Below, in pieces: positions 1-64,000 of a stretch of 64,000 bases of DNA (position 1 is its first letter; each line of letters begins with the position of its first letter). The notes below the pieces were generated by a model that was given only the letters and a program-made list of their open reading frames with translations, did not search any database and had not been told where the DNA came from. Location of the stretch: positions 3,472,001 through 3,536,000 of the forward strand of contig NZ_CP035491.1 of NCBI RefSeq assembly GCF_004135405.1, written 5' to 3'. A program made the translations under genes and the position numbers. This DNA comes from Agromyces protaetiae (GTDB taxonomy: Bacteria; Actinomycetota; Actinomycetes; Actinomycetales; Microbacteriaceae).

Positions 1-980
1 TGCAGCCCTCGAGCGACTCGCTCCACCTCGGCAACTACCTCGGCGCCCTCGTCAACTGGGTCGCCCTGCAAGACGAGGTCGACCCCATCTACTGCGTCGT
101 CGACCTGCACGCGATCACGGTCGCCCAAGACCCCGCCGCGCTCCGCGAGTCGACCCGTCGCACGGCCGCGCAGTACCTCGCCGCGGGCATCGATCCCGAG
201 CGATCGACGCTCTTCGTGCAGTCGCACGTGCCCGCACACGCCGAGCTCGCCTGGGTGCTCTCGACCATCACGGGCTTCGGCGAAGCGAGCCGCATGACCC
301 AGTTCAAAGACAAGTCGGCCAAGCAGGGCGCCGACGGGGCGACCGTGGGTCTCTTCACCTACCCCGTGCTCATGGCCGCCGACATCCTGCTCTACGACAC
401 GTCGCTCGTGCCCGTCGGCGACGACCAGCGCCAGCACCTCGAGCTCACGCGCGACCTCGCCGGCCGATTCAACTCGCGCTTCGGCGAGACGTTCCGCATC
501 CCCGAGGCGTACATCCCCGAGACCTCGGCCCGCATCTACGACCTGCAAGACCCGACCTCGAAGATGTCGAAGTCGGCGGCGTCCGACGCCGGCCTCGTGC
601 GCGTGCTCGACGAGCCGAACGCCACGGCGAAGAAGTTCAAGTCGGCGGTGACCGACGCCGAGCGCGAGATCCGCTACGACCGCACGGCGAAGCCCGGCGT
701 CTCGAACCTCCTCGACATCTATGCGGCGGTCACGGGCCGCGGCATCCCCGAGATCGAGGCCGAGTACGCGGGCCGCGGCTACGGCGACCTGAAGAAAGAG
801 CTGGCCGAGGTCGTCGTCGACCGACTCGCGCCGATCCGCGCGCGCACCTTCGAACTGCTCGCCGACCCGGCCGAGCTCGACCGCATCCTCGCGCTCGGCG
901 CCGACAAGGCCGCCGAGCGCGCCGAGGTGAAGCTCGCAGAGGTGTACGAGCGCGTCGGGTTCGTGCGGCGCGGGCGCTGA
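1..980 (+). CDS. trpS: Tryptophan--tRNA ligase, 5' end missing
   Basis: Class I aminoacyl-tRNA synthetase that charges tRNA-Trp in the cytoplasm. The reading frame is already open at base 3 and begins within the family's N-terminal ATP-binding region: [12 protein letters not shown] carries the HIGH-equivalent HLGN motif, and the KMSKS loop appears further on as SKMSKSAAS. The frame ends in a TGA at 978-980. About 325 codons are present against a usual length of about 335-340, so only a few N-terminal residues are lost beyond the window edge. The downstream HAD gene starts 11 bp after the stop and is probably cotranscribed. Confidence 0.95.
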
Positions 981-990
981 GGCCGGCGTC

Positions 991-1728
991 GTGTCCGGTT
1001 CGGCGGTCGTCCTGTTCGATCTCGACGACACGCTCATGGCCCACCGCGAAGCGGTCGTCACGGGCATCGGGCGCCATATGCGCGATCTCGCATACGAGGG
1101 CGACGAAGCTCACGCCGCAACCCTCTGGCACGACCTCGAGGAGGAGCACTACCACGCGTACCTCGCAGGCGACCTGACCTTCGAGGGGCAGCGGCGCGCT
1201 CGCGCCCGCGCGTTCGCCGCCGCCCACGGCGATGCCCTCGACGATGAGTCGGCAGGGCGCTGGTTCGAGTCCTACTTCGAGCGCTACCGCGAGTCGTGGT
1301 CGCTCCACGCCGACGCACTGCCCGCGTTCGCGGCGCTCGAGCAGGCCCTGCACGGTGTGCGCTTCGGGGTGATCACGAACGGCGAACTCGACTTCCAGAC
1401 CGCCAAGCTCGCCCGGCTCGGGCTCGAGCGGCGCTTCGACCACGTCGTCGCCTCGGGAGCATTCGGGGCGACGAAACCCGATCCGTCGATCTTCCGGCAC
1501 GCGGTCGACCTGTTCGCCGCCGACGCACCGGTCGCGCTCGCCGTCTACGTCGGCGACCGCCTCCGCACCGACGCGATCGGCGCCGCCCGTGCCGGGCTCA
1601 CCGGCGTATGGCTCAACCGGCATGCGATCGAGCCCGCAGCCGACGAGCGGGCCGAGGCCGAGGCATCCGGAGTGCTCGAGATCGCGACCCTCGCCGAACT
1701 CGCGCCGCTACTCGCCGCGCTCGCATAG
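991..1728 (+). CDS. HAD-superfamily hydrolase (HAD-IA type)
   Basis: A 245-residue haloacid dehalogenase-like phosphohydrolase. All four HAD motifs are visible: FDLDDT near residue 9 (nucleophile Asp and general acid Asp), VITNGE (motif II Thr), the Lys of ATKPDPSIF (motif III) and VYVGDRLRTD (motif IV acidic pair). The segment between motifs I and II is helical, as in the C1-cap subfamily of phosphoglycolate/pyrimidine-nucleotidase type. The start is GTG, 11 bp after the trpS stop, suggesting an operon. The substrate cannot be told from sequence. Confidence 0.88.
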   Translation: MSGSAVVLFDLDDTLMAHREAVVTGIGRHMRDLAYEGDEAHAATLWHDLEEEHYHAYLAGDLTFEGQRRARARAFAAAHGDALDDESAGRWFESYFERYRESWSLHADALPAFAALEQALHGVRFGVITNGELDFQTAKLARLGLERRFDHVVASGAFGATKPDPSIFRHAVDLFAADAPVALAVYVGDRLRTDAIGAARAGLTGVWLNRHAIEPAADERAEAEASGVLEIATLAELAPLLAALA

Positions 1729-1751
1729 CGCACGCCCCTCCCACGACGCGC

Positions 1752-61868: not shown

Positions 61869-62016
61869 AGTCCCTCAGCTTCCTCGATAGGCTCGCACTC
61901 TGAAGACCGCATCGACGCCGAGACCCGGAGCGATCGCACGGACTGCATGCAGGTGGGCCCTCCACATCGGCATCGGGCGTATTCCGCTCGACGGACGGTG
62001 GAAGGGGAACAACGGG

Positions 62017-63201
62017 GTGAGCGTTCCGCAAGCACCACGCGTCGCGGTGGTCCTCCGCCACGGACTGAACCCCGACCGCTGGCGGGAGCGGCACGAACGC
62101 GGCGAGGTCGTCGACGAGACGCCCTACGGGTACCACCTCGCGGGCGACGAGTTCGACCTCGTCTGGTCGACCGACCACGCGGAGAGCGGCCTCGCGCGAC
62201 GTTGGCGGTCCGCCGTGCGGAAGGCGCTCGGCTTCGACCTCGTCCACGTCTGGCGGAACCGCGCGATCATCGCAGGCGCCGACGTCGTCTGGACCCACAC
62301 CGAACGCGAGCACCTCGCCGTCGCACTCCTGAAGCGCCTCCGTCCGAACACCTACCGCGCGGCGCTCCTCGCGCAGTCGATCTGGCTGTGGGACGACTGG
62401 CCCGACCTTCCGGCCGCGCGCCGCGCGCTGTGGTCGCGACTCCTCCCCGAAGCGTGGATCGAGGTCGTGCACAGCCGACTGAACCTCGAGCGGTCGCGGA
62501 CTGCGGTTCCCGGCCGGCGCACGGCGCTCCTGCCGTTCGGCACCCACTTCGCGACGGCGCGGATGGATCGCGCGAGCGCCGCCGCAGGCGCCGGCGCCGA
62601 GGCATCCGCCCGCCCTCGCGTCCTCGTCATCGGCAACGACCGCCACCGCGACTGGCCGCTCCTCGTCGAAGCCGCCGCGCGTCGCCCGCAACTCGACTTC
62701 GAGATCCTCTCGCTCGCAGACGCGGTGCGGGCGCTCTCCTGGCCCGCGAACGCGACGGTCCGCTCCTTCCACCAGCGGGAGATCGTCGAGACGCGATACG
62801 CCGAGGCCGACGTCGTCGCGATCCCGCTCCTTTCGAACGTGCACGTGTCGGGCTGCACGGTCGCGATCGAGGCGCGCTCGGCAGGCGTGCCGGTCGTCGC
62901 GACCGACGTCGGCGGCATCGACGACTACCTCGAAGGCGCCGTCGCCGCGCTCGTCCCCGAGGGCGACGTCGACGCGTTCGTGGCCGCGATCGACCGCTTC
63001 CTCGACGCCCCGCGACCCTCCGCCGACGACCTCGCCGAGGCGGCACGCGCAGCCGCCGAGCACGGCATCGAGCACCTCGACTACGTCGAGCGCTACGCAG
63101 CCCTCACGCGCGCGATCTTCGCTGGCGAAGAGCCGCCCGAGCAGGCTTCGAGATTCGAGCGGATGCCTCGGGCCGCCGCCCGAACGGAGGCGACGACATG
63201 A
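62017..63201 (+). CDS. Glycosyltransferase (GT-B, family 4-like)
   Basis: A 394-residue cytosolic glycosyltransferase. The C-terminal donor domain has VLVIGNDRHRDWPLLVEAA, the surface-position string YAEADVVAIPLLSNVHVSGCTVAIEARSAG with the E-x7-E type motif, and VPVVATDVGGIDDYLE. The N-terminal acceptor half is divergent. GTG 62017 follows GAAGGGG. It is the first gene of a coupled unit with an acyltransferase and a third gene, suggesting exopolysaccharide or glycolipid assembly. Confidence 0.85.
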   Translation: MSVPQAPRVAVVLRHGLNPDRWRERHERGEVVDETPYGYHLAGDEFDLVWSTDHAESGLARRWRSAVRKALGFDLVHVWRNRAIIAGADVVWTHTEREHLAVALLKRLRPNTYRAALLAQSIWLWDDWPDLPAARRALWSRLLPEAWIEVVHSRLNLERSRTAVPGRRTALLPFGTHFATARMDRASAAAGAGAEASARPRVLVIGNDRHRDWPLLVEAAARRPQLDFEILSLADAVRALSWPANATVRSFHQREIVETRYAEADVVAIPLLSNVHVSGCTVAIEARSAGVPVVATDVGGIDDYLEGAVAALVPEGDVDAFVAAIDRFLDAPRPSADDLAEAARAAAEHGIEHLDYVERYAALTRAIFAGEEPPEQASRFERMPRAAARTEATT

Positions 63202-63755
63202 ACCCGGTCGACCTCCTGAACGGCGCGCAGCGCGCCCGCGACGCCCTGTTCACGCGCCTCGCGGCACCCGGCTTCGCGCACTTCGGAAAGGGCTCGCGCA
63301 TCCTCTTGCCGACACGGCTCTCGGGCACCGAGCACATGAGCGTCGGCGACAAGGTGCTCATCGGAGCGCAGTCGTGGCTCATCGTGCCCGAGCAGCGCGA
63401 GCCCGGGCCGAACATCGTCCTCCACGACCGCGTGCGCATGAATCAGACCTCGATCTCGGCCGTCGCGCGCGTCGAGCTCGAAGAGGCCGTCGCGATCGCC
63501 CGCGGCTGCTACATCTCCGACCACTCGCACGGGTTCGACGATCCCGACCTCCCCATCCGCGACCAGCCGCTCGGCCGCGTCGCGCCCGTCCTCATCAAAC
63601 GGGGCGCGTGGCTCGGGCAGAACGTCGTCGTGCTGCCGGGCGTCACGATCGGACGCGGAGCGGTCATCGGCGCGGGCAGCGTCGTGCGCAGCGACATCCC
63701 CGACCGCACCGTCGCCGCGGGCGCGCCCGCGCGAATCCTCAGGGAGCTGCCATGA
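63198..63755 (+). CDS. Hexapeptide-repeat acyltransferase
   Basis: A 185-residue left-handed beta-helix O-acetyltransferase. Imperfect hexapeptides run through VGDKVLIGAQSWLIV, ISAVARVELEEAVAIARGCYI and RGAWLGQNVVVLPGVTIGRGAVIGAGSVV; the catalytic His is in SDHSHGFDDP. It ends with VAAGAPARIL, typical of the family. ATG 63198 overlaps the glycosyltransferase stop and has GGAGG upstream; it likely acetylates a polysaccharide or lipid sugar. Confidence 0.9.
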   Translation: MNPVDLLNGAQRARDALFTRLAAPGFAHFGKGSRILLPTRLSGTEHMSVGDKVLIGAQSWLIVPEQREPGPNIVLHDRVRMNQTSISAVARVELEEAVAIARGCYISDHSHGFDDPDLPIRDQPLGRVAPVLIKRGAWLGQNVVVLPGVTIGRGAVIGAGSVVRSDIPDRTVAAGAPARILRELP

Positions 63756-64000
63756 GCCGGGCCGAGGCGCCTTCGACCCACCCGACCCCGACGAGTGCGG
63801 GCGCCGCCGGGGACTACGTCTTCACGTTTTCGTACGAGTCGTACGCCGACGCGAGCAAGCGCGGCATGATGCGCCCGCCCGACCGGCTCGTGAGCCGCCT
63901 CATGACGAGCCCCGACGTGCGGCGGCTGCTCATCGCCGACCCGTTCCGGTCGTCGCGGACGAGATGGGGGCGGGCCATCCTCGACATCGGCAACAACGCG
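63752..64000 (+). CDS. Probable glycosyltransferase, 3' end missing
   Basis: Starts with ATG 63752 inside the acyltransferase stop and runs off the window after 83 codons. After about 20 disordered residues the segment DYVFTFSYESYADASKRG, RPPDRLVSRLMTSPDVRRLLIADPF resembles the start of bacterial cell-surface glycosyltransferases. With so little sequence the assignment rests mostly on its operon partners. Confidence 0.55.
   Translation, partial: MSRAEAPSTHPTPTSAGAAGDYVFTFSYESYADASKRGMMRPPDRLVSRLMTSPDVRRLLIADPFRSSRTRWGRAILDIGNNA

Follow-up and report, generated by a model that had tools for sequence, protein, structure and literature searches.

The 11-mer CGGATGCCTCG is present in 34 exact copies in a 64,000 nt stretch of the Agromyces protaetiae genome (the window), and very probably, at a likelihood of roughly 0.8, represents the local form, or dialect, of a signal for DNA uptake that extends across much of the Microbacteriaceae. 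Its probable reader is a type IV filament, in many cases a Tad pilus. On the evidence of the genomes, the motif works like the DNA uptake sequences (DUS) of Neisseriaceae and the uptake signal sequences (USS) of Pasteurellaceae, with which it shares its copy number, its occurrence on both strands without polarity, its dialects arranged around a common core and its inverted pairs at the ends of genes.

A sequence-only reading of the window had likened the word to an uptake sequence, having counted by hand about 18 copies and 16 complements where far less than one was expected. The hand count was exact (18 on the plus strand and 16 on the minus strand) and the mean across 100 dinucleotide shuffles was 0.15. 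The copies do lie mostly within genes, as had been stated, with 28 of the 34 starting inside predicted genes, which throughout are those of our own simple codon-usage caller rather than a standard annotation. The additional variants it mentioned are likewise present: among single base changes, CGGATGTCTCG has 12 copies and CGGATGCCCCG has 10, all others being found 0-2 times. The exact copies of CGGATGCCTCG in the window are as follows, with the variants differing at the seventh and ninth positions (Y7/Y9) after them.

1659..1669, minus strand, exact motif
3621..3631, plus strand, exact motif
6768..6778, minus strand, exact motif
8193..8203, minus strand, exact motif
8270..8280, minus strand, exact motif
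13131..13141, minus strand, exact motif
18225..18235, minus strand, exact motif
20958..20968, minus strand, exact motif
22803..22813, plus strand, exact motif
26110..26120, plus strand, exact motif, left hairpin arm
26131..26141, minus strand, exact motif, right hairpin arm
26743..26753, plus strand, exact motif
27134..27144, minus strand, exact motif
28738..28748, plus strand, exact motif
29215..29225, plus strand, exact motif
29233..29243, plus strand, exact motif
31512..31522, plus strand, exact motif
34163..34173, minus strand, exact motif
35382..35392, minus strand, exact motif
37036..37046, minus strand, exact motif
38767..38777, plus strand, exact motif
40995..41005, minus strand, exact motif
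41101..41111, plus strand, exact motif
45216..45226, plus strand, exact motif
47364..47374, plus strand, exact motif
54795..54805, plus strand, exact motif
57535..57545, plus strand, exact motif
58027..58037, minus strand, exact motif
58351..58361, plus strand, exact motif
58713..58723, plus strand, exact motif
59362..59372, minus strand, exact motif
60482..60492, plus strand, exact motif
62598..62608, minus strand, exact motif
63160..63170, plus strand, exact motif
2536..2546, minus strand, variant CGGATGTCTCG, with 26 more Y7/Y9 variant sites in the window
Y7/Y9 variants starting at 3510+, 10983-, 13092+, 13113-, 14304-, 14792-, 16197-, 18290+, 20915+
Y7/Y9 variants starting at 22903+, 22943-, 24978-, 25053-, 27496+, 31234-, 32173-, 36084-, 37911+
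Y7/Y9 variants starting at 41743-, 46617+, 46882-, 47612-, 47894-, 48598+, 53526+, 60229+

The whole genome, a single contig of 3,683,091 bases (3.68 Mb), holds 645 + 610 = 1,255 exact copies, approximately one per 2.9 kb, against 0 + 2 for the reversed word used as a control. Its RpoC shares 92% identity with that of Agromyces sp. ISL-38 and 81-85% with those of Clavibacter, Gryllotalpicola, Homoserinibacter, Microcella, Microbacterium and Leucobacter, in a comparison that may lack entries for this genome itself or its closest kin; this places it in the Microbacteriaceae and probably in Agromyces. In a 464 kb genome-wide sample, 177 exact copies were found, whereas an order-4 Markov model, in which the motif copies are already included, predicts 4.8; the comparison with a Markov model that the sequence-only reading had suggested therefore leaves the counts far above expectation. 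Within this sample GGATG and the terminal CG are nearly fixed, at 0-5 copies per substitution, while variation is found at position 7 (C to T, 75 copies), position 8 (C to T, 20 copies) and position 9 (T to C in 51 copies, to G in 24 and to A in 21) and, weakly, at position 1 (9-14 copies per base). The local word is CGGATG[C/t]C[T/c]CG, a sequence that is not palindromic, and its core GGATGCCNCG is found 2,503 times in this genome against 40 for its reverse. As the flanks (positions -8 to -1 and 11 to 19) are close to uninformative, at no more than 0.17 bits per position, the unit is the 11-mer rather than part of a longer repeat. At one locus (L035, 16879-16974), a gap between genes hosts five copies of CGGATGTCTCG in a single orientation, mostly spaced by 17 bp. 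A second word, GTTTGTCGGACA, is found in 11 copies in a 914-kb sample, in four clusters that each contain both directions within about 140 bp; one cluster is at 1752-1891 of the window (genome 3473752-3473891), and it looks like a separate repeat element.

Codon use, placement and polarity were assessed in this 914-kb sample of the genome, which contains 581 degenerate sites. A bias in codon pairs or amino acids might be thought to produce the motif, given that 313 of the 389 sites wholly within predicted genes fall in two of the six frames, those spelling Asp-Ala-Ser or, on the opposite strand, Glu-Ala-Ser. The codons involved are indeed avoided ones, as the sequence-only reading had remarked, with GCA accounting for 6.9% of Ala codons and TCC for 16.2% of Ser codons, and codon use fails to account for the word: 136 of 218 instances of Glu-Ala-Ser are encoded as GAG-GCA-TCC, against 1.9 expected, making this the only encoding that is raised (70-fold, the next standing at 0.75-fold, among those with at least one expected copy). 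Similarly, 111 of 245 instances of Asp-Ala-Ser are written GAT-GCC-TCG against 6.4 expected, a 17-fold excess that involves GAT, an uncommon choice for Asp (11.8%), and the next encoding, GAC-GCA-TCC, reaches 3.7-fold (9 against 2.4 expected). Site density is moreover 3.5-fold higher between genes (1.71 per kb) than within them (0.49 per kb). The codon counts and the intergenic excess together refute an origin through such a bias, to which we attach next to no probability; the word sits where the protein sequence tolerates it, and selection acts at the level of the DNA.

The even balance of the two orientations had been taken as an argument against a polar Chi site or FtsK-orienting polar sequence (KOPS), and mapping relative to the origin bears this out. 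With dnaA at 847,723-849,204 of the genome and the terminus assumed to lie opposite, 285 degenerate sites are on the leading and 296 on the lagging strand (p 0.68), the figures for exact sites being 143 and 172 (p 0.115); there is thus no replichore polarity, and no switch at the terminus of the type associated with KOPS and FtsK. In its abundance the word is of the order of Chi in Escherichia coli, and like Chi it is short and non-palindromic, which could indicate a recombination signal read by a nuclease of the RecBCD, AddAB or AdnAB type. Such a signal would also fit the scarcity of sites in AT-richer DNA, the mean being 2.4 in the 12 10-kb bins below 68% GC and 7.4 in the 60 bins of at least 70% GC, although GC content itself lowers chance counts. 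However, the absence of a leading-strand bias distinguishes the word from Chi, and neither the inverted hairpin pairs nor dialects that drift around a fixed core would be expected of it, making this explanation improbable.

Only slightly less improbable is that the word is bound by a protein of chromosome organisation, segregation or nucleoid occlusion, or that it marks DNA as self and thereby protects it from a defence nuclease. The near-even, non-polar spread of sites is in keeping with this, as is a fall in density from 0.63-0.75 per kb to 0.43 per kb in the final sixth before the terminus, a dip that a nucleoid-occlusion site could produce. Sites of these kinds are usually palindromic or few, whereas this word is not palindromic, is found within predicted genes in 393 of 581 cases and turns over between species. 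Massive iteration of a short word inside genes is also a feature of HIP1 in cyanobacteria, but HIP1, unlike the word described here, is a palindrome.

The gaps between genes differ in density according to the orientation of their neighbours, with 3.96 sites per kb in convergent, 1.62 in tandem and 1.20 in divergent gaps. Among the 581 sites there are 76 close pairs (no more than 60 bp apart), 35 with both copies pointing the same way, 31 ordered +- and 10 ordered -+. In 24 of the 31 +- pairs both members are intergenic, many forming near-perfect hairpins, and the inverted pairs between convergent genes probably act to end transcription. Eight of the 10 -+ pairs overlap back to back (CGRGRCATCCGGATGYCTCG), generating a 20-bp near-palindrome, for instance at genome positions 1245701, 1617687 and 2768037. 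Four inverted pairs are found in the window:

13092..13123 (genome 3485092), inverted CGGATGCCCCG pair forming hairpin arms, between convergent predicted genes
20915..20968 (genome 3492915), inverted pair of a variant and an exact copy, between tandem predicted genes
22903..22953 (genome 3494903), inverted CGGATGTCTCG pair, between divergent predicted genes
26110..26141 (genome 3498110), perfect inverted CGGATGCCTCG pair, terminator-like hairpin, between convergent predicted genes at 25098-26084 (plus strand) and 26147-26950 (minus strand)

The 31 inverted pairs and the density of convergent gaps might suggest that the word belongs to a family of transcription terminators or of repeats similar to repetitive extragenic palindromic (REP) sequences. 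This is very unlikely, since 393 sites are in predicted genes, most of the 581 have no neighbour within 60 bp, and the uninformative flanks leave no room for a larger mobile repeat.

Looking in relatives, a further check raised by the sequence-only reading, shows the word to be enriched as a series of dialects. Each of the 60 genus genomes searched, among them that of A. protaetiae, is enriched, with exact copies numbering between 58 and 1,255 against 0 to 4 of the reversed control, and the core outnumbers its reverse by 2,902 to 26 in genome G023 and 2,998 to 49 in G054. In a family set of 299 genomes from 85 genera, enrichment was defined as an 8-fold excess of the core over the reversed word, a level reached by 126 genomes and, by median, 36 genera; 31 genera have medians below 4-fold. 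Small genomes show no enrichment, nor do genera such as g36 and g52, whereas at the top of the range it exceeds 100-fold. As the reversed control contains the rare GTAG, ratios near 2 represent no enrichment.

In a search of the order, 274 genomes of 19 other families were at approximately 4-fold or less, with family f4 reaching up to 7-fold, and two weak genomes of the Microbacteriaceae itself (G221 and G108) ranked no higher than those of other families. Samples of 40-80 kb from f4 (two genomes), f6, f7, f9, f12 and f14 contained no word as strong, the best z being 14.6 (7 copies, in f4), whereas 40 kb of the window gave 32. The top words in the f4 samples (80 kb and 40 kb; G508 and G567) were unrelated to the core. 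Family f4 itself has a weak core excess, of about 5-7 times the control and 69-107 copies, in G508, G567, G556, G417 and G469.

Counts of the core against the control at named loci, 19 of the 80 looked at, follow the same distribution: 9 to 1 in 13.9 kb of Agromyces, 8 to 1 in Microbacterium ulmi, 6 to 1 in Gryllotalpicola and 3 to 1 in Homoserinibacter, with 1 to 1 in Leucobacter, 0 to 1 in Clavibacter and Microcella, 0 to 0 in a Microbacteriaceae metagenome-assembled genome and 0-1 in 11 actinobacteria from other families. The signal spans much of the Microbacteriaceae and, at such strength, is absent elsewhere in the order as searched. Strength can also differ sharply within a genus, with 1,542 cores in G271 against 111 in G221 (g85), 1,093 in G296 against 249 in G251 (g80) and 1,543 in G336 against 212 in G202 (g82), and these three genera would be well suited to the study of recent loss of uptake.

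The dialects share the core GGATG-Y-C-N-CG. When k-mers were counted without supervision in other genera (40-kb samples), this core reappeared with a different ninth base, as CGGATGCCGCG or ACGGATGCCGC in g2, g54, g64, g85, g38 and g82, and as CGGATGTCGCG and GGATGCCACGG in g80; samples of g46, g17, g74, g56 and one g85 species (G221) showed no enrichment. The ninth base varies even within the genus, being mostly T in G000 and G023, T, G or C alike in G053, and mostly G in G054, G057 and G005. Outside it, G is the predominant base in samples of g2, g7, g38, g54, g58, g64, g80, g82 and g85, with A also used in g80 and g82. As G dominates outside the genus, T is probably a local shift from an ancestral G.

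The genes that such a signal would require are present. A Tad pilus locus, of the Rv3654c kind, had been recognised in the window and is confirmed at 57.4-60.6 kb, with the same gene order in four members of the genus (regions fetched around a TadA match):

59559..60593, minus strand, tadA pilus ATPase (TIGR03819), putative part of the uptake filament
58465..59448, minus strand, tadB/C-like platform protein (T2SSF), putative part of the same filament
58151..58315, minus strand, Flp-like pilin, recognised by eye from its N-terminal segment, without a family match
57823..58170, minus strand, TadE-type minor pilin (NF041390, PF07811), candidate receptor
57464..57778, minus strand, Rv3654c-family TadE-like protein (TIGR03816)

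By eye, the Flp-like pilin resembles the N-terminus of Micrococcus luteus Flp as printed in a section of PMC6370729. The genome also contains a second Tad locus, comEA (SLBB and HHH domains) beside comEC and, behind rpoBC, a type IVa locus consisting of pilB, pilT, pilC, pilins, pilD, pilM, pilN and the start of pilO, giving the competence set of type IV filament, ComEA and ComEC as genes. This type IVa locus (L055 7860-20000; genome 1487860-1500000) lies mostly in a motif desert that spans 6.9 kb at 66% GC and, with PilM missing from four of six genomes drawn from the genus, may have been gained late or else lost patchily; four copies of the motif are crowded into its pilD-pilM gap (L055 17874-17967). 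The statement that M. luteus needs Tad pili for transformation is likewise found in print, in passages of PMC8467076 and PMC6370729.

The reader of the signal may differ between genomes. A type IV filament is at hand in every motif-rich genome examined individually. PilM, taken as the marker of type IVa pili, was matched in 145 of the 299 family genomes (144 over the cut-off) and is absent from 45 of the 126 enriched genomes, so a type IVa pilus is not required and can be ruled out as a necessary reader. It is found in two of six genomes drawn from the genus, the two with most core copies being without it, and is rare or absent in some genera that are motif-rich by median (1/5 in g85, 0/5 in g58, 0/2 in g55 and 0/6 in g8); some genera without the motif, namely g5 (6/6), g17 (5/6), g32 (6/6), g36 (6/6) and g69 (5/5), carry it in most or all of the genomes drawn. 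The Tad pilus is the likeliest candidate reader where it is the only such filament, and type IVa pili may have a role where they are present.

The interpretation as an uptake signal would proceed as follows. A type IV filament at the cell surface would bind free DNA that contains the word in preference to other DNA. This filament would be the Tad/Flp pilus where there is no type IVa pilus and either where both are found. From there the DNA would pass to ComEA, enter through ComEC and recombine with the chromosome. With word-bearing DNA at an advantage on entry, copies would accumulate by molecular drive on both strands, wherever the protein permits, and inverted pairs between convergent genes would be adopted as hairpins, probably ending transcription. 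Transformation, known in members of the family, would as a single mechanism explain the abundance, the use of both strands, the placement in defiance of codon use, the hairpins, the dialects, the restriction to the family and the lack of enrichment in phages. This last is based on ten phages, eight of Microbacterium and two of Curtobacterium, which over 394,516 bases contain 21 cores against 12 controls, an unenriched level, the motif level of their exact hosts not having been measured; a thymidylate-kinase search of phages and a TadA search of plasmids returned nothing useful. The proposal that the word is akin to an uptake sequence is hence supported by the excess over the Markov model, the failure of codon use, the lack of polarity and the dialects in relatives.

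Several observations weigh against this interpretation, or against its emphasis on Tad pili. The motif goes with PilM across the family, 8-fold being reached by 81 of the 144 genomes with PilM and by 45 of the 155 that lack it (p 9e-8, with no correction for kinship), and this association lowered our confidence in an independent origin of the signal with Tad pili as frequent readers to slightly above even. ComEC (293 of 299 genomes) and TadA-type ATPases (matched in 298 of 299, with 200 above the curated cut-off; five matches fall short of 1e-75, and related ATPases may account for some) are nearly universal in motif-poor genera too, and so do not predict the motif; their presence is uninformative as a discriminator. 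In G040, a member of the genus with 982 cores against 47 controls, the TadA-type match is weak (2e-32) and PilM is present, indicating that the signal has readers other than Tad. Passages of PMC11577799, the main text of which does not contain the phrase 'uptake sequence', describe natural transformation in two Microbacteriaceae from clades with genomes below 2 Mb, namely Rhodoluna lacicola and Aurantimicrobium photophilum. Family genomes of less than 2 Mb show little or no motif, and these are likely to be the same genera.

Lastly, individual sites are not conserved above background. In comparisons across species, with four members of the genus at approximately 80% identity, 7 of 60 sites were fully conserved against 9.0 expected from local phase-matched 11-mers, a weak test, and base identity within the motif was below that of the control in all four relatives. 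Passages of PMC2397512 describe the DUS of Neisseria as highly conserved, in closer relatives than those compared here. In 18 of the 60 aligned comparisons the relative has some form of GGATGYCNCG at the site. Density is kept rather than position, which fits drive with turnover.

The closest parallels to the proposed uptake signal are found in Neisseriaceae, Pasteurellaceae and M. luteus. As with the DUS of Neisseriaceae, a short word is present in hundreds to thousands of copies (sections of PMC12616744), with dialects that keep one invariant core, an association of inverted pairs with terminators and permissive intergenic regions (portions of PMC3630211 and PMC2397512), alongside competence genes. 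The differences are an unrelated sequence, a host in the phylum Actinomycetota, no requirement for type IVa pili and the lack of site conservation at about 80% identity; the DUS receptor in Neisseriaceae is ComP, and the likeness drawn here is one of genome pattern. The cell in question is also monoderm. Similarly, the USS of Pasteurellaceae has the same genome pattern, is restricted to a family and retains a fixed inner core (sections of PMC12616744), but is unrelated in sequence and has the type IV minor pilin ComN/PpdA as its proposed receptor. Transformation in M. luteus provides an actinobacterial precedent for ComEA and ComEC acting with Tad pili (parts of PMC8467076 and PMC6370729), although no comparable enrichment for this motif is seen in the order's other families as searched, and neither PMC4322843 nor PMC8467076 uses the phrase 'uptake sequence' in its main text.

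According to the relevant sections of a 2025 paper (PMC12616744), Neisseriaceae and Pasteurellaceae are the only families known to discriminate between DNA in this way. Among open-licence publications, preprints excluded, none of the titles listed pointed to an uptake sequence in Actinomycetota, though one may be in print elsewhere. We are marginally inclined to the view that uptake sequences arose independently a third time, in the monoderm Actinomycetota, where many species would read them with a Tad/Flp pilus in place of a type IVa pilus and the dialects could be barriers to gene exchange between genera of Microbacteriaceae. If true, this would be a third case from another phylum and cell type, in which the origin of such signals, shifts of dialect and gene flow could be tested in free-living relatives with different pili, and it would suggest a way to mark DNA for uptake by Microbacteriaceae. 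It would also imply a part for natural transformation in shaping much of the family.

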